The position numbers and the translations under genes are program-made. A stretch of 38,356 nucleotides of DNA from Nitriliruptorales bacterium (GTDB taxonomy: Bacteria > Actinomycetota > Nitriliruptoria > Nitriliruptorales > Nitriliruptoraceae): positions 1 through 38,356 of the forward strand of contig JAGXFT010000186.1 of the NCBI GenBank assembly GCA_024637135.1. Direction: 5' to 3'. This document shows, piece by piece, positions 14,618-22,867 of this stretch. How positions within the stretch are numbered: position 1 is the first letter of the stretch; each line of letters opens with the position of its first letter. A model generated the notes under the pieces. The model was not told the DNA's origin. It saw only the letters and a program-made list of their open reading frames with translations, and did not search any database.

Positions 14618-14639
14618 CCGAACGCCTGTTCGATCCTAT
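14618..14639 (-). promoter_or_regulatory. LexA box and -10 element of dinB
   Basis: CCGAAC-GCCT-GTTCGA at 14618-14633 differs by one base from the actinobacterial LexA consensus TCGAAC-N4-GTTCGA. Directly upstream in the direction of dinB, TAGGAT (14634-14639) matches a -10 element and contains the stop codon of the preceding HAD gene. LexA bound here would cover the promoter start. No good -35 was seen. Confidence 0.7.
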
Positions 14640-15322
14640 CGCCGGCCGGGCCCCGACCCCACGTCGGCGATCCCCGTCCCGATGCCCGCGACCTCCAGCG
14701 CGTCGAGCAGGGTCGGGACCACCGGCGCCCCGGTCTCGCGGAGGTGGGCGGTCGGGTGGCTGCCACCGTCGAAGAGCACGACCCGTGCCCCCAGTTCACG
14801 GGCCGCCGTGGCGTCGTCGATCGCATCGCCGATCAGCACCACCTGGTCGGCCGCCGCCACCGACAGGTGGTCGAGGTGCGCCCGCAGCCACTCGGCCTTG
14901 TGGCCACCACCCACGCCCAGGACGCCGTCGACCCGGTCGAAGTTGTGCCCGAGGTCATGGTGGTCGACCATCTCGACCAGGTGGTCGTGCTGGGCCATCG
15001 ACAGCAGGGACTGGGTCCGTCCGCTGGACCGGACCCGTTCCAGTGCCGTTCGGGCCTGCTCGTCGAGGTCGACATGGCGCACGACCCGGAAGTAGGCCGC
15101 GTGGAAGTCGGCATCGATCCGCGCCCACAGGTGGTCGTCGATCTCGCGTGCCAGCAGTCGTTGGTAGAAGTGTCGCACCGGCCTCGTGTAGAGCCGGCGA
15201 TAGGTGGCCATGTCGGTGTTCGGATGGTCCATCCCGGCCAGCATCAGGTTCAGGGCATCGAGCACGGCCGACTGGTCGGCCAGCAACGTGCCGTTCCAGT
15301 CCCAGACCACGTGACGCACCAT
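14636..15322 (-). CDS. HAD-superfamily hydrolase
   Basis: The 228-residue product begins MVRHVVWDWNGTLL, with HAD motif I as D8-W-N10-G-T. Motif III Lys appears in GGGHKAEWL and motif IV as IGDAIDDATAA, which fits phosphatases of the phosphoglycolate phosphatase-like branch. The second motif I acid is Asn, a variant also common in other WDWNGTL-type HAD proteins. The ATG at 15322 is the first credible start, though its GGAGG is about 14 bases away. It lies immediately upstream of dinB. The substrate is unknown. Confidence 0.85.
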   Translation of the reverse strand: MVRHVVWDWNGTLLADQSAVLDALNLMLAGMDHPNTDMATYRRLYTRPVRHFYQRLLAREIDDHLWARIDADFHAAYFRVVRHVDLDEQARTALERVRSSGRTQSLLSMAQHDHLVEMVDHHDLGHNFDRVDGVLGVGGGHKAEWLRAHLDHLSVAAADQVVLIGDAIDDATAARELGARVVLFDGGSHPTAHLRETGAPVVPTLLDALEVAGIGTGIADVGSGPGRR

Positions 15323-15414: not shown

Positions 15415-15439
15415 ATTGCAGGGGTTGAACCCATGCAAT
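15415..15439. promoter_or_regulatory. 25-bp near-perfect palindrome (candidate operator)
   Basis: Arms ATTGCA (15415-15420) and TGCAAT (15434-15439) enclose GGGGTTGAACCCA. The whole is a dyad with one mismatched pair plus the centre base. The inner GGGTT-G-AACCC leaves no hairpin loop, so a dimeric regulator site is more likely than an RNA stem. It sits 33 bases before the ATG of the next plus-strand gene and is AT-richer than its surroundings. The binding protein is unknown. Confidence 0.55.
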
Positions 15440-15472: not shown

Positions 15473-16192
15473 ATGGCCCGTATCATCACCGCCACGATCG
15501 CCTCGCTGGTCCTGTTGGCGGCCTTGGTCCTCGTCATCGAACTGCCCGACCCCGTGCCGATCCACATCGCCTCGGACGGCACCGCCGACGGCTTCGCGAG
15601 CCCTGCGGCCGCGCGGCCGCTGAGCATCGCGCTGCCGGCCGTCGTGGCGCTGTTGTTGGCGGCGATCTCGTGGACCCGACGTCGGCCCCCGGCCGGCATG
15701 CGGTGGGCGCTGAGGCTCCGGGTGGGTGCCGTCTGGGGCGTCGGCGGGATCATGCTGGCGACCCCCGTGGGGCCGGACCAGTCCACCTTCTTCCACGGCG
15801 ACGAGGGTGACGAGGCCAGCGGCCGGGTGTCCAACACCACGACACGCGTGTGGAACATGGACGACCTCGACGCGCCCGTCCTGGCCGAGACCTTCGCCAA
15901 CGACACGACCTCGATCGACCACAACATGTACACCGAGGGCGACCTGATGTACCAGTCCAACTACACCACCGGGCTGCGCATCATGGACATCGCCGACGCG
16001 GTCGACGACGGCCCGGAGGAAGTGGCCTACTTCGACGTCTACCCCGGCAACGACAACCCGTCGTTCGAGGGTGGCACGTGGAGCAACTACCCCTACTTCC
16101 GCCAGAAGCACGTGGTCGCGGTCAGCAGCATCGACCGAGGCCTGTCCATCCTCCGTCCCTCACCGCGGCTGGCGTCACACCGCAACGGGTGA
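15473..16192 (+). CDS. Chimeric membrane protein: DUF1648-like N-terminus joined to a choice-of-anchor-B (LVIVD-repeat) C-terminus
   Basis: The 239-residue product has two unlike halves. Residues 1-100 carry three hydrophobic spans (about 4-24, 48-66, 82-98) and PDPVPIHIASDGTADGFASP, a DUF1648/SdpI-like signature. From about residue 103 the sequence (STFFHGDEGDE, then NTTTRVWNMDDLDAPVLAET, YQSNYTTGLRIMDIAD, YFDVYPGNDNPSFEG and DRGLSILRP) resembles the last third of secreted choice-of-anchor-B proteins, which normally have several hundred more residues and a signal peptide before it. The join is in frame, so the gene looks like the product of a deletion, or possibly a mis-assembly. No strong ribosome site precedes the ATG (GAGAG only). 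The function of the fusion is unknown. Confidence 0.6.
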   Translation: MARIITATIASLVLLAALVLVIELPDPVPIHIASDGTADGFASPAAARPLSIALPAVVALLLAAISWTRRRPPAGMRWALRLRVGAVWGVGGIMLATPVGPDQSTFFHGDEGDEASGRVSNTTTRVWNMDDLDAPVLAETFANDTTSIDHNMYTEGDLMYQSNYTTGLRIMDIADAVDDGPEEVAYFDVYPGNDNPSFEGGTWSNYPYFRQKHVVAVSSIDRGLSILRPSPRLASHRNG

Positions 16193-16282: not shown

Positions 16283-17005
16283 TCAGGCTGCCGTCCCCAG
16301 CAGGGGCGGCAGCACGAAGATCATCAGCGTCGACCACGTGACGTGGGTGATCATGGGTGCCAGGATCCCCCCGGTGACGCGGCGCTGGAGTCCGACCAGG
16401 ATGCCCAGCACGAGTGCGGCGAACACCAGCATCGCGTTGCCGGTCGCCAGCGTCGCGACGGCGTAGACGATGGCCGAGATCGTCACTGGCCGCCATCGGC
16501 CGATGGCGGCGAACAACGCACCGCGGAAGAACAACTCCTCGGCCACGCCGTTGAGGACGGTGATCGCCAGCACCACGGGCAGCCGGGCGAAACGGGCATG
16601 GTCGAGCACGTCGACCACCAGGTCACGCAGCAGGGGCAACTGGGCGACGAGCAGTGCCCCGACGGAGAAGACCGCGACGGCGACCAGCCCCACCAGCAGG
16701 GGCTGGACGATCGGACGCGTCAGCCGGTCGCCGTCGGGCAGTCGCATCCACCCGAGGTGCAGCGGCCCGGACGACAACGACCCGACGACCCACACCGCCG
16801 CCAGCGCGGACGTGGACCACACGAACGTCGGGTCGCCGGGCGGGAGACGGAGCGAGTAGCCGAGCAGGGCCGCACCGACGAGGACGGTGATGCCGGCCAC
16901 CACGCGCCGACGCCGGAACTCGTGGTCGGGCTGCTGGTGGTCGCGGGGGACGGATTCGACCAACGAGTTGCGGAGCAGCCGCTCGACCCGTGCGATGACA
17001 TCCAT
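16283..17005 (-). CDS. CPBP-family intramembrane protein (putative CAAX protease-like)
   Basis: This 240-residue membrane protein has about six to seven spans and the CPBP/Abi motifs: GVAEELFFRGAL with Glu156, Glu157 and Arg161, and PMITHVTWSTLM with His221. Motif 2 (usually FxxxH) reads YAVAT, so one expected metal ligand is Thr; related actinobacterial proteins show the same pattern. Activity as a metalloprotease is therefore uncertain. The ATG has no ribosome site but lies 6 bases after a TACCGT hexamer, suggesting a leaderless transcript. It is a single gene flanked by the hairpin above and an esterase gene. Confidence 0.85.
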   Translation of the reverse strand: MDVIARVERLLRNSLVESVPRDHQQPDHEFRRRRVVAGITVLVGAALLGYSLRLPPGDPTFVWSTSALAAVWVVGSLSSGPLHLGWMRLPDGDRLTRPIVQPLLVGLVAVAVFSVGALLVAQLPLLRDLVVDVLDHARFARLPVVLAITVLNGVAEELFFRGALFAAIGRWRPVTISAIVYAVATLATGNAMLVFAALVLGILVGLQRRVTGGILAPMITHVTWSTLMIFVLPPLLGTAA

Positions 17006-17011
17006 GCGACG

Positions 17012-17017
17012 ACGGTA
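17012..17017 (-). promoter_or_regulatory. -10 element for a leaderless CPBP transcript
   Basis: TACCGT on the minus strand ends 6 bases before the ATG at 17005, so transcription would begin at or next to the start codon. No -35 match is seen. The rest of the gap up to the esterase stop (17018-17166) shows no gene or clear site. Confidence 0.4.
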
Positions 17018-17166
17018 GCCAGCGGCTCCGGCCGGTCGTCCGCGCCGGTGGCCGCGGCCGGGTCAGCCCATGACGACCGCCGGAGAGCATGCTTCCTCCC
17101 CCACATCGTGCGCGGGACGAACGCATCGGGGTGCCACCGGGATCGCGGGTCCCAGGTCCGTCGAGG

Positions 17167-18195
17167 TCAGGGCTGGAGGCGCTCGGCGAGGTGGCGGATC
17201 GCCAGGGGGTAGCGGTACTCGATGCCGGAGTGGGTCGCGTCGAAGAGTTCGAAGTGGGTCGGTTCGACCCCGATGTCGACCAGTTCGTCGCGCACCGCGG
17301 TCGTCCCCAGGTCCAACCAGAACTGGTCTCGGGTCCCGGCGTCCAGCCAGATCGCCCGCAGCCCCCGCAGCGCGTCGGCGTGTCCGGCCACCATCCGGAC
17401 CGGATCCCACTCGAGCCACCGTGCCCAGACGTCGTCGACCAGCCGACCGTTGGCGTCGAAGGGCAGGTGGACGGTGCCGTCCGGATCGGCCGACCAGCAC
17501 GCCGCCATCGCCCAGGTCATCACCAGCATGTCGTCGTTGGGTCGGCTGCCGTGGGGGCGCGCGTTCCAGTCGGACCAGAAGTGCTCCCATGACCCCTCGT
17601 GGTCGTCGCGCAACGCTCGCGCCACCGATCGGAACTCGCCCGCGAAGCAGGTTTCGAAGAGCGAATCACCGGCGTGGCTGGCCAGTGCGCCGAACACGTC
17701 GGGGCGGAGCATCGGGGTGATCAGGGCGCCGTAGCCACCCGAGGACTTCCCGGCGATGCCACGGTTCGCGGCGTGGGGCAGCGTCGCGTGGTGGGCGTCG
17801 ACGAAGTCCACGACCTCGTCGCACAGGTAGGTGTGGTAGTCGCCGACCGCCGGCGAGTCGACGAACTGGCTGCCACCGAGCGAGGTGTGGCAGTCGACGA
17901 AGGCGAGCCGGACCGGCGGGTGGCCGTCGTCGACCATCGCCTCGTCGAAGCGTTCCAGGGCGCTCGGGCGCAGGGGCGGACGTGACCGCCAGCCCTCGAC
18001 CCGCCCCGTGAATCCCTGGATGACGTAGATCGTGGGCGTCGCCTGGTCGGGCTCGACGTGCGGCGGCGTCAGCACCCACAGCGGTCGCGCCGTCGGGTCC
18101 CCCAGCGGGTTGTCCGCGAGCACGTCGCTGGTGATCACGTGCTCGTCGAGACGACCGCGCAGCGGACCGCCCCACGGTGTCGTCAACGTCAGCAT
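17167..18195 (-). CDS. Putative esterase (esterase D/EstA-like alpha/beta hydrolase)
   Basis: This 342-residue alpha/beta hydrolase has the nucleophile elbow GKSSGGYGAL (Ser151 in G-x-S-x-G), a likely acid in LDAGTRDQFWLD and a likely His in ATHSGIEYRY near the C-terminus. It also has IYVIQGFTG near residue 57, as in PF00756 putative esterases. No signal peptide is evident. The ATG at 18195 is chosen because GGAGGT lies 5 bases upstream; a start at 18240 would overlap ctaG. It follows ctaG by 31 bases on the same strand and may be co-transcribed with the oxidase operon, but no functional link is apparent. The substrate is unknown. Confidence 0.83.
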   Translation of the reverse strand: MLTLTTPWGGPLRGRLDEHVITSDVLADNPLGDPTARPLWVLTPPHVEPDQATPTIYVIQGFTGRVEGWRSRPPLRPSALERFDEAMVDDGHPPVRLAFVDCHTSLGGSQFVDSPAVGDYHTYLCDEVVDFVDAHHATLPHAANRGIAGKSSGGYGALITPMLRPDVFGALASHAGDSLFETCFAGEFRSVARALRDDHEGSWEHFWSDWNARPHGSRPNDDMLVMTWAMAACWSADPDGTVHLPFDANGRLVDDVWARWLEWDPVRMVAGHADALRGLRAIWLDAGTRDQFWLDLGTTAVRDELVDIGVEPTHFELFDATHSGIEYRYPLAIRHLAERLQP

Positions 18196-18226
18196 CGTCA
18201 ACCTCCGAGCTCGATGTCGCGGGTGC

Positions 18227-19129
18227 CTACGAACCTCCACCGGAGTCGAGGGTGGCCAGCCGTGAAGGCCGACCGGGCACCGACCCCGGGCCGTCGTCGG
18301 TGGTGTCCAGGGCCTGCAGCCACCGGACCAACAGGGTCAGCGCGACCCCCACGTACACGACGCTGCCGGGGATCCACATGATCACCCCGGCGAGGTGCTG
18401 GTCGGCCAGCGCGGTCAGCCCCCACTGCTCCGTGGTGGTGTACGAGGGGTACCAGGGCTCGTTGGCGAAGGTCAGGAGCGCGGACAGGAACACGCCCTGC
18501 ATGGCCGTGGCGAAGACGACCAGCACGCCCAGTCCCGGGGCCACCCGATGGGCACCGCCCCGTGCGCCCACCACGACTCGCCACAGCACCACGCCGGTCA
18601 CGACGAATGACACGTGCTCGAGGACGTGGAGCGCCTCCGATGCCAACGCGGCCTCGTACAGCACCGCCGAGTGCCACCCCCACACCACCAGCAGGTGGGC
18701 GAGCCAGGCCACCACCGGTGCTCCCCACCATGCCAGCCGCCGACTGACCGGTCGGACCCCGCGACGCAGCGCCACGGTGGCACGTCGCAGTCCCGGCGGA
18801 CTGCCCCGCAGCAGCACGCTCGACGGTGCGGCCAACGCGAGCAGGGGCGCCACGACCAGCAGCAGCAGGACGTGCTGAACCATGTGTGCTGACGCCAACG
18901 ACCCGGCAACGGCCTCCAGGGGGGACACCAGCGCCACCAGCAGGACCACGAGGGCCCCGCCGAACAGCCGGTCGCGACGACGGTCCCGTGGTCGCCGCCC
19001 CGCCTCGCGGCCGCGCCGGTACGCCCACATCGTCGCAAGGAGCAGCCCCAGCAGCACGGGATCGACGTTCCACGCCTGCCACGCGTCGTGGGGGGCGACA
19101 GGTGCCCCGGCGTGGGCGACCACGAGCAT
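18227..19129 (-). CDS. ctaG: Cytochrome c oxidase assembly factor CtaG (Caa3-type)
   Basis: The 300-residue protein has about seven membrane spans and the features of the CtaG_Caa3 family: WNVDPVLLGLLLATMWAYRRG near the N-terminus in parts, SAHMVQHVLLLLVVAPLLAL, HVLEHVSFVVTGVVLWRVV, and LADQHLAGVIMWIPGS. These proteins help assemble the copper centre of caa3-type oxidases, which matches the upstream ctaC-ctaDE genes. Start 19129 has GAGG 9 bases upstream. An ATG at 19147, overlapping the stop of the preceding gene, is the alternative and adds six residues. Confidence 0.88.
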   Translation of the reverse strand: MLVVAHAGAPVAPHDAWQAWNVDPVLLGLLLATMWAYRRGREAGRRPRDRRRDRLFGGALVVLLVALVSPLEAVAGSLASAHMVQHVLLLLVVAPLLALAAPSSVLLRGSPPGLRRATVALRRGVRPVSRRLAWWGAPVVAWLAHLLVVWGWHSAVLYEAALASEALHVLEHVSFVVTGVVLWRVVVGARGGAHRVAPGLGVLVVFATAMQGVFLSALLTFANEPWYPSYTTTEQWGLTALADQHLAGVIMWIPGSVVYVGVALTLLVRWLQALDTTDDGPGSVPGRPSRLATLDSGGGS

Positions 19130-19140
19130 CGTGTCGAGCC

Positions 19141-19656
19141 TCAGCATCCGGTGAACCACAGCACGGGCAGGCCCACGAACAGCACCGACACGAACGACAG
19201 CAGGCCGAGCAGCACCCCGACGAAGGCCAACGGACGTTCGTCGCCGTCCAGGTCGGTACCTCCCGGCGGCGGACCGGGCTGCTCGAGTTCGTCCACGCGT
19301 CGGCCACCACGCCACTGCCGGTACTGCCACCTCGCCACCGCGAGGCAGCCCAGGGCAGCCACCACCGTCGCCGCGAGGGTCAGGACCACGGGTACCGGCG
19401 GGTCGAACAGCGACAGCCCGGTGCCACTGCCGGTGCAGCCCGCCTCGGCGACCAGGTAGACGAACATGAAGTGGACGAACCAGACCGTCGGCGCCGCGAC
19501 GAACATCGCCATCGCCCGCCGGGTCGCCGGGTCCGAGGCCAGGTCGACCGCCATCGGGGTGCCACTGGCCTGGGTCGTGCGACCGCCGTCCGTCTCGCCA
19601 GGGCGCGTCGCACCGTCGTCGTCGGGACGGTCGGGGTCGGACCGGTCGCTGGTCAT
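19141..19656 (-). CDS. Small membrane protein of the cytochrome oxidase operon
   Basis: This 171-residue protein has an acidic, hydrophilic first 35 residues and three hydrophobic segments (about 49-72, 88-107 and 144-168). The first includes TVWFVHFMFVYLVAEAGC. I do not recognise a named family, but similar small membrane proteins are often found beside caa3 oxidase genes. The ATG overlaps the ctaDE stop as ATGA and the stop lies next to ctaG, so it is surely co-expressed with the oxidase. A role as an accessory or subunit-IV-like protein is only inferred from position. Confidence 0.78.
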   Translation of the reverse strand: MTSDRSDPDRPDDDGATRPGETDGGRTTQASGTPMAVDLASDPATRRAMAMFVAAPTVWFVHFMFVYLVAEAGCTGSGTGLSLFDPPVPVVLTLAATVVAALGCLAVARWQYRQWRGGRRVDELEQPGPPPGGTDLDGDERPLAFVGVLLGLLSFVSVLFVGLPVLWFTGC

Positions 19657-22202
19657 GTGAGCACGGGTCCCGTGTACAGCACCCCGAAGCCGATCAGCCA
19701 CATGGCGACGGCCGCGACGTGGAACCGGACGATGTTGACCACCGGCGCGTGTGCCCGTCCGGTGTACAGGCCGCGGATCGACCAGAACAGTGCGAGGCCG
19801 AGCATGACGACCGCGGCCAGCACGATCGTCAGGTTGAACCCGGCCAGGGTCCACAGGATCGAGCCGTAGGCGTGCACGCCGCCGGTGACGTCGAGTGCGG
19901 CGATGTCCACGACCTGCACCACGACACCGGCCAGCGCGAGGCCGATCGCCGCGACCAGTCCCGCGAGGAACCGCGGTCGGGCGTTGTCGCCGAGGCGAGC
20001 GAGGGACCACCGCGCGGCCACGGCCGAGCCGGCGACCAGCGCTGCGGCGACCAGCGCCCGACCGAGCGGTGGGTCGGCCACCCCCGGCGGCGGCCAGACC
20101 GGGTTCTCCAGGCGCAGGTAGAAGTAGGACAGCAACAGGGTCGAGAACGCGATGGCGACGAACAGGATGATCAGTCCCATGCCCCAGGCGGCCACGACCA
20201 CGCTGCCACCGGCGTTGACTGGAACCCCGGTGTCGCGCTCGAACTCGGCCTCCTCCTCCTCGGTCATCGGGGCCGGGGACGGCCAGTTCCAGCCGACCAG
20301 GGCGACGACGGTGATGGCCAGTCCGATGGCGGCCCCCCACCGCAGCTTGACCAGTTCCGCCACGAAGATCAGCACGATGCCCCCGGACGCGACCAGCGGC
20401 CAGATCGAGGGACCAGCCACCCGGAAGACCTCCTGGGGGCGTCCGTCAGCGGTGCCGACGATCGCGGCCGCCCGCCAGTTCAGCGGCCAGTCGGCCAGGC
20501 GCTGGACGAAGTTCTCCAGTTCCGGTGGACCGGTGTGGAGGTCGTCCTGGTCCCACAACGGATGGCGGCTGCGCACGATCGGCAACTGTGACCAGCCATG
20601 CTCGGCGGGTGGCGACGGCACCGCCCACTCCAGCGAGTCGGCGCCCCAGGGGTTCGGGCCGGCTTCGTCCCCGTGGCGGCGGCTGCGGACCACGTTCCAG
20701 ACGAACACGCCCAAGCCGGGGATGATGACGAAGATCCCCGCGGTGGAGAGCAGGTTGAGGACGTCCCACCCCAGCCCCGCCTCGTAGGTCACCACGCGCC
20801 GGGGCATGCCGAGCAGCCCGAGCTGGTGCATGGGGAAGAAGGTGAGGTTGGTGCCGACGAACAGCAACCAGAAGTTCCACCGACCGAGCCGTTCGTCCAG
20901 CAGTCGACCGGTGAACTTCGGGAACCAGTAGTACACCCCGGCAAAGATCGGGAACGCGACGCCCCCGATCAACACGTAGTGGAGGTGGCCGACCACGAAG
21001 TAGGAGTCGTGGACCTGCAGGTCCAGCGGCACGGCCGCGGTCATGATCCCGGTGATGCCCCCGAGCACGAAGATGACCAGGAACCCGACGACGAACAGGA
21101 AGGCGGTCTTCCACTGGGGCCGGCCGAGCCAGATGGTCGACACCCATGCCACGACCTGGATGCCGGCCGGGATGCCGATGGCCATGCTGGCGGCCGAGAA
21201 GAAGGTCAACACGATCGGGGACAGGCCCGACGTGAACATGTGGTGTGCCCACAGCCCGAAGGACAGGAACCCGATCGCGACGAACGAGGCCACGATCCAG
21301 GTGTAGCCCGCGATCCGCCGCCGCGTCATGGCGGGGACGATCATGGAGACCACGCCGGTGGCCGGCACGAACTGGATGTAGACCTCGGGGTGCCCGAAGA
21401 TCCAGAACAGGTGTTGCCACAACAGGGTGCTGCCCCCGGCAGCGGTGTTGAAGAACTGGGTCCCGAACCCACGGTCGAGCTCCAGCAGCAGGTCGCCGAT
21501 GATCAGCGGGGTGAACCCGAACAGGATCATGAAGGCCATCACGAGCAGTGCCCAGGCGAACAACGGCAGTCGCGCCAGGGTCATCCCCGGGGCACGCATC
21601 TTGAGCACGCCGATGATGATCTCCAGCGCGGCGGCGATCGCCCCGATCTCGGCCACCGTCAACCCGATGATCCAGAAGTCCATCGCCTTGTCGGGCGAGA
21701 ACTCCGGCCCACTCAATGGGACGTAGGCGAACCAGCCCGCGTCGGGGACCATCTGGAACAGTGCACTGGAGTAGTACACGAGGCCGCCCAGGAGGAACGT
21801 CCAGTACCCGAGCGCTCCCAGCCGCGGGAAGGGCATCTCGCGGGTGCCCAGGATCAACGGCAGCACAAGGATCGCGAAGCCCTCGAAGATGGGCAGGATC
21901 ACGAGGAACATCGTCACGGAGCCGTGGTTGGTGAACAGTTCGTTGTAGAACTGCGGGCTGACCAGGGCCTGTTCGGGGAAGGCCAGCTGCAGGCGCATGA
22001 GGAACGAGTCGAAGCTTCCCCCCAGCAACAGGAAGAAGAACCCGGTCAGCATCAGGCGCACGCCGATCGCGTCGTTCTGGACGGCCCGCAACCTCCCCCA
22101 CAAGCCGGGCGGATCGGCCCACAGCGCATCCAGTTCCTCGTGGCTGCCGCCACGGGCGGCGGTGGGCGTGTCCCGCCGGACGCCGTCGTCGTCCATGCTC
22201 AC
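19653..22202 (-). CDS. ctaD: Cytochrome c oxidase subunit I+III fusion (CtaD-CtaE, caa3-type)
   Basis: The protein (849 residues from GTG 22202, or 847 from ATG 22196) fuses subunit I to subunit III. Numbering from the ATG, the haem a ligands are His91 (FTNHGSV) and His406, Cu-B ligands His269 with the cross-linked Tyr273 (FGHPEVY) and His318-His319 (WAHHMF), and the haem a3 ligand His404 (VGHLHY). Subunit III-like spans occupy about 600-847. It reduces O2 to water and pumps protons in the membrane. At the usual D-channel entrance GAPDMAFPRLNN this protein has GTREMPFPRLGA, so the Asp is Glu120. The GTG is preferred because GGGGA is 6 bases upstream and it overlaps the ctaC stop as GTGA. Confidence 0.92.
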   Translation of the reverse strand: MSMDDDGVRRDTPTAARGGSHEELDALWADPPGLWGRLRAVQNDAIGVRLMLTGFFFLLLGGSFDSFLMRLQLAFPEQALVSPQFYNELFTNHGSVTMFLVILPIFEGFAILVLPLILGTREMPFPRLGALGYWTFLLGGLVYYSSALFQMVPDAGWFAYVPLSGPEFSPDKAMDFWIIGLTVAEIGAIAAALEIIIGVLKMRAPGMTLARLPLFAWALLVMAFMILFGFTPLIIGDLLLELDRGFGTQFFNTAAGGSTLLWQHLFWIFGHPEVYIQFVPATGVVSMIVPAMTRRRIAGYTWIVASFVAIGFLSFGLWAHHMFTSGLSPIVLTFFSAASMAIGIPAGIQVVAWVSTIWLGRPQWKTAFLFVVGFLVIFVLGGITGIMTAAVPLDLQVHDSYFVVGHLHYVLIGGVAFPIFAGVYYWFPKFTGRLLDERLGRWNFWLLFVGTNLTFFPMHQLGLLGMPRRVVTYEAGLGWDVLNLLSTAGIFVIIPGLGVFVWNVVRSRRHGDEAGPNPWGADSLEWAVPSPPAEHGWSQLPIVRSRHPLWDQDDLHTGPPELENFVQRLADWPLNWRAAAIVGTADGRPQEVFRVAGPSIWPLVASGGIVLIFVAELVKLRWGAAIGLAITVVALVGWNWPSPAPMTEEEEAEFERDTGVPVNAGGSVVVAAWGMGLIILFVAIAFSTLLLSYFYLRLENPVWPPPGVADPPLGRALVAAALVAGSAVAARWSLARLGDNARPRFLAGLVAAIGLALAGVVVQVVDIAALDVTGGVHAYGSILWTLAGFNLTIVLAAVVMLGLALFWSIRGLYTGRAHAPVVNIVRFHVAAVAMWLIGFGVLYTGPVLT

Positions 22203-22867
22203 GGTTGGTCCCCGTCGGGACTGCGGGCATCCACCCACCGTTGGAAGTCGGCCGCGTCCTCGCTCACGACGGGCATCATCATGCGGGCGTGCTCGAGCCC
22301 GCAGAACTCCGCGCAGCGCATCTGGTGCTCGCCCTCCACGTCGGCTTGCAGGACCAGGGTGTTGACGCGTCCCGGCATCATGTCGATCTTGCCGCCCAAC
22401 TCGGGCACCCAGAAACTGTGGATGACGTCGTCGGAGGTCAGGCGCAGTTCCACCTCGCGCCCGACCGGCAGGTGCAGTTCGTCGGTGGTGCTGAACCCCT
22501 GCTCCGGATAGGTGACCTCGTAGGTCCACTGGCGCCCCACGACCTCCACGACCAACGGGTCGTCCGCGCTGGCCGCGGTGGGCAGGTCCACCATCGCGGC
22601 GATCGTGGCCCCGAACACCACGACGAGGACGATCGTGGGAGCGACCACCCCCCAGCCGACCAACCAGCGGCCGAGCCGGCGGTCGTCGGGGGCGGTGGTG
22701 GTCTCGATCGGGTCCGTGGGTTCACCACCACGTCGTCGCAGCCCGATCCCGAGCAGGACGACGAACACGCCGAACACGACCAGGCCGAGCCAGAACAGCA
22801 ACCACCACAGGTCGGCGATGGTCCCCGCGACCGGCCCCTGCGGATCCAGCGCACCGCCCGGGGTCAC
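22199..22867 (-). CDS. ctaC: Cytochrome c oxidase subunit II (CtaC/CoxB)
   Basis: This 222-residue protein has two N-terminal membrane spans (about 20-42 and 67-92) and a periplasm-side cupredoxin domain. All Cu-A ligands are visible: His150 (VIHSFWVPELGGK), Cys185, Cys189, His193 and Met196 in CAEFCGLEHARM. It accepts electrons from cytochrome c and passes them to subunit I. It has no fused cytochrome c domain, as the CXXCH motif is absent. The GTG at 22867 overlaps the stop of a possible 15-codon leader ORF. It is the first structural gene of the ctaC-ctaDE-small membrane protein-ctaG operon. Confidence 0.93.
   Translation of the reverse strand: MTPGGALDPQGPVAGTIADLWWLLFWLGLVVFGVFVVLLGIGLRRRGGEPTDPIETTTAPDDRRLGRWLVGWGVVAPTIVLVVVFGATIAAMVDLPTAASADDPLVVEVVGRQWTYEVTYPEQGFSTTDELHLPVGREVELRLTSDDVIHSFWVPELGGKIDMMPGRVNTLVLQADVEGEHQMRCAEFCGLEHARMMMPVVSEDAADFQRWVDARSPDGDQP

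Follow-up and report, generated by a model that had tools for sequence, protein, structure and literature searches.

Does an open reading frame that begins like one protein family and ends like another encode a new protein, or is it what remains of two older genes? This question is raised by an uninterrupted frame of 239 codons plus a stop at 15473-16192 (forward strand) of the window, the 38,356-nucleotide stretch of a draft Nitriliruptorales genome analysed here. A preliminary description of this DNA had proposed an in-frame fusion between the start of a DUF1648-like membrane protein and the end of a choice-of-anchor-B protein, both truncated, and the open reading frame list and its translation contain the 239-residue frame just as it was described. 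Here we report that a sister species, Salsipaludibacter albus AS10, has both genes whole, so that the frame is most likely an unremarkable remnant of broken genes rather than a new protein family; that the fusion gene is a deletion scar we regard as probable.

Each half of the predicted protein has a recognizable parent, and neither match is due to chance. Residues 1-97 align to the beginning of a DUF1648 membrane protein, with 45-50% identity to the S. albus member, and residues 12-44 match Pfam PF07853 (E=7.7e-6) with 25.9 bits, below the curated gathering cut-off of 28.7, which the S. albus orthologue exceeds with 37.4 bits. Residues 99-239 align to the final quarter of a choice-of-anchor-B protein, with residues 102-228 falling on positions 240-363 of the 364-position TIGR04312 model (E=5.5e-39). 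The whole-protein score of 134.5 bits exceeds the curated TIGR04312 cut-off of 100, but the fusion covers only this last part of the full-length domain and has a DUF1648-like N-terminus, whereas the intact S. albus protein covers positions 1-363 with 409 bits. Identity of this half to S. albus is 81% in DNA (L021:3783-4165; L021 is the matching locus on S. albus contig C46) and 78% in protein. The fusion C-terminus can be described as a clear partial member of the LVIVD-type choice-of-anchor-B propellers, lacking the secretion region at their N-terminus as well as the first 240 positions of the model.

The proposed truncation of both halves is borne out as well. The 5' remnant (15473-15764, forward strand), delimited by a tblastn match to L021:649-948, PF07853 and DNA alignment, holds about the first 97 of some 326 codons of the DUF1648 gene, and the 3' remnant (15768-16192, forward strand), delimited by TIGR04312 and by DNA and protein identity to S. 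albus, holds about the last 141 of some 533 codons of the choice-of-anchor-B gene, including its stop.

Relatives were searched for both halves in 61 genomes, among which the isolate S. albus AS10 (G001) is the only additional member of the genus and hence the single congeneric genome for comparison. On its contig C46, residues 1-97 match L021:649-948 and residues 99-233 match L021:3777-4181 on the same strand, within two separate full-length genes that keep the order and strand of the fusion halves: a DUF1648 gene of 326 aa (L021:649-1629) and a choice-of-anchor-B gene of 533 aa (L021:2604-4205). Between them lie a gene for a YtrA-type GntR regulator of 119 aa, ending at L021:1985, and then a stretch without an assigned gene. 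The S. albus order is an operator-like palindrome, DUF1648, GntR, choice-of-anchor B, CtaG and CtaD, with the last two on the strand opposite to the choice-of-anchor-B gene. As the check on a deletion, the preliminary description had proposed to look in relatives for full-length homologues of the two halves as separate genes at the locus; S. albus has them, with both parents intact and syntenic, collinear flanks. A second S. albus choice-of-anchor-B copy, on contig C5, is a less likely counterpart of the C-terminal half (74% versus 81% identity, and no CtaG synteny).

Comparison with the S. albus sequence also identifies what is missing. In DNA alignments, homology on the left ends at window position 15764 (L021:949) and starts again on the right at 15768 (L021:3778), and the join therefore lies at 15765-15767 on the forward strand, about 8-10 bases to the left of the earlier placement near 15775; that the reading frame is kept across it was correctly recognized. 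Since these points map to L021:949 and L021:3778, about 2.83 kb (L021:950-3777) is absent from the window. Comparison of the two sides revealed no repeat at the join, and none of assembler-word length.

The surroundings of the fusion agree with those of the intact locus on both sides. To the left, the window up to 15340, comprising a DinB-type polymerase gene, an HAD hydrolase gene (14636-15322, reverse strand) and genes further left, runs collinear with the terminal part of S. albus contig C10; to the right, the window from 18287 onward is collinear with C46 downstream of the intact choice-of-anchor-B gene, with CtaG (18227-19198, reverse strand) followed by CtaD, the pair spanning 18227-22400 as the same pair found in S. 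albus. An ECF sigma factor gene closes contig C10 about 0.9 kb past the HAD gene, and a malectin-like fragment opens C46 about 0.57 kb ahead of the palindrome. The genes at these ends and the collinearity with the window suggest that the two contigs are probably neighbours in S. albus, with extra sequence between them that is absent from the window. The ECF sigma factor gene and the malectin-like fragment occupy L136:10699-11355 and L021:1-648, and in the window the HAD gene is followed directly by the palindrome. In the interval separating the fusion from CtaG, the window also encodes an Rce1-like (CAAX-type) protease and an esterase (16283-18240); the esterase has no match in S. albus and the protease only a weak one there, while another member of the class (G042) encodes an esterase 54% identical to that of the window.

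Just upstream of the DUF1648 start codon, both genomes carry a 25-bp imperfect palindrome, each as a single copy per genome: ATTGCAGGGGTTGAACCCATGCAAT in the window (15415-15439, forward strand) and ATTGCATGGGTTCAATCCATGCAAT in S. albus, differing at a base of the left arm. In GntR regulators of the YtrA type the effector domain is small (YtrASa of Sulfolobus acidocaldarius has 121 aa), the regulator gene shares an operon with genes for membrane proteins, and the DNA sites bound are typically 24 bp long (PMC6746942). Based on these traits and on its size, we suggest that the GntR protein encoded adjacent in S. albus probably binds the palindrome, which is thus a probable operator of the DUF1648 operon. 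The S. albus arrangement resembles YtrA-subfamily operons such as those of Bacillus subtilis YtrA and YtrASa in that a 119-aa GntR gene adjoins a membrane-protein gene, whereas the window keeps only the operator-like site, 25 bp as against the typical 24, and part of the membrane gene. The regulator gene itself belongs to what was deleted, and a search of the draft genome for the S. albus GntR regulator found only distant GntR genes, none of them a close homologue.

This pairing is not peculiar to S. albus; a DUF1648 gene is paired with a GntR gene there and at the loci of 6 of 10 further relatives. Relative to such pairs, the fusion shares the DUF1648 stretch at its N-terminus and the palindrome ahead of the gene but is truncated within the third membrane span, has lost the regulator gene and scores under the DUF1648 cut-off. 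At L038, L040 and L043-L046, from several relatives, DUF1648-type membrane genes adjoin GntR genes in both orders, and L038 has a weak palindrome, TTGATATGCTTGAACCATGTCAA, close to the start codon. A sigma-70 promoter scan found no promoter, and a literature search on DUF1648 with GntR, on choice-of-anchor B and on Salsipaludibacter found nothing relevant in the collection searched.

The same observations could arise if the true genome held both genes and an assembler or scaffolder had skipped 2.8 kb, particularly as the draft comprises 213 contigs, of which the window is contig 46, and the join is known from one assembly only. A repeat-driven misjoin was considered and rejected, as the draft genome contains a single copy of the 23-bp join sequence, with no second site even allowing 3 mismatches, and no repeat of assembler-word length is common to both sides. 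No string of N interrupts the join either, the frame is kept, and the flanks are collinear with S. albus. The skipped segment has not been left on another contig: the remainder of the DUF1648 gene, the regulator and the rest of the choice-of-anchor-B gene are absent from the draft except for distant paralogues, namely one on contig C170 that is 49% identical to the S. albus protein, and the distant GntR genes. The draft is 87.8% complete, so this absence is only moderate evidence against misassembly. Taken with the unique join sequence, it leaves an assembly error unlikely in our judgement.

A second alternative holds that the join is real and the product selected, with the DUF1648 spans displaying the end of a choice-of-anchor-B propeller outside the cell, where choice-of-anchor-B proteins are normally found. 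The topology would allow this: the R-rich loop after span 2, RRRPPAGMRWALRLR, is predicted by the positive-inside rule to be cytoplasmic, so a third span would place the C-terminal part outside. The frame is moreover intact and undecayed, and dN/dS of the C-terminal half is about 0.31, a value from one pairwise comparison that cannot separate the time before the deletion from the time after it. Of the three membrane spans proposed earlier, however, two are clear and the third is marginal, clipped by the join with loss of its last residues (best 19-residue hydropathy 1.30, versus 1.63 in S. albus); the S. albus orthologue has five hydrophobic spans in its roughly 326 aa, a number that the fusion does not reach. 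The propeller is likewise incomplete. AlphaFold places it at residues 139-529 of the S. albus protein, with matches to WD40-type propellers, and the retained fragment starts near S. albus residue 392, so that the break lies inside the propeller and about a third of it is left. The model of the fusion is poor (mean pLDDT 63.9, pTM 0.48, from an alignment that is shallow, especially for the N-terminal half), with 0 residues at pLDDT of at least 90 as against 185 in the intact S. albus protein, and it has no fold match at E<=0.001. A sequence search of the choice-of-anchor-B alignment against solved structures gave no match. Residue 225 is Ser, where 97% of relatives have a conserved Phe. A conserved fusion family is rejected, as no second fusion occurs among 66 genomes of the class or among the best 80 of 320 GTDB loci, and these 80 all match from residue 99 onward only. 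The earlier suggestion of a new surface protein thus finds no support, and a selected fusion appears very improbable; very improbable, too, is a newly born, expressed fusion whose DUF1648 spans would expose one third of a propeller at the surface of the cell, from a promoter freed by loss of the repressor gene.

Counting against the preferred reading, a deletion scar, decay of the coding sequence was sought as a sign of a pseudogene and not seen: there is no stop within the frame, unusual residue departures number 6 in the window versus 5 in S. albus, and the HMM profile score of the C-terminal half is 191.5 bits versus 198.9 for S. albus. Such an undecayed sequence fits a recent deletion, would equally fit a retained product, and is no proof of function. 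We suggest that the fusion is a fairly recent deletion scar, most likely without function. The ancestor would have carried, as S. albus does today, the operator, the DUF1648 gene, the YtrA-type GntR gene and the gene for a secreted choice-of-anchor-B propeller. Because both halves are truncated, the direction of change is inferred to be loss, in which about 2.83 kb from inside the DUF1648 gene to inside the choice-of-anchor-B gene would have been removed together with the regulator, the two stumps being joined with the frame kept by a one-in-three chance. No repeat was found at the junction, which points to illegitimate recombination with little or no microhomology as the likely mechanism. Should the promoter that was left in place, having lost its dedicated repressor, drive expression, the resulting protein would comprise two clear spans, a clipped third and roughly one third of a propeller, and would most likely be misfolded and degraded.

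The locus carries a caution for annotation, since automatic pipelines would call the fusion a choice-of-anchor-B or a DUF1648 protein when it is really a remnant of both. It is also a clear example of a deletion in which a regulator is lost while its probable operator still precedes a now truncated target; sequences from further strains could reveal the rate at which such an in-frame fusion decays. Elsewhere among choice-of-anchor-B genes, the protein match at three loci (L028, L029 and L034, including the second S. albus copy) is split, with about 430 bases separating the parts that correspond to S. albus residues 292 and 302, which suggests that these propellers contain an insertion of about 140 aa. 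At G053:C90:21759-22112 (L012), a choice-of-anchor-B match contains an in-frame TAG and is perhaps another broken copy.
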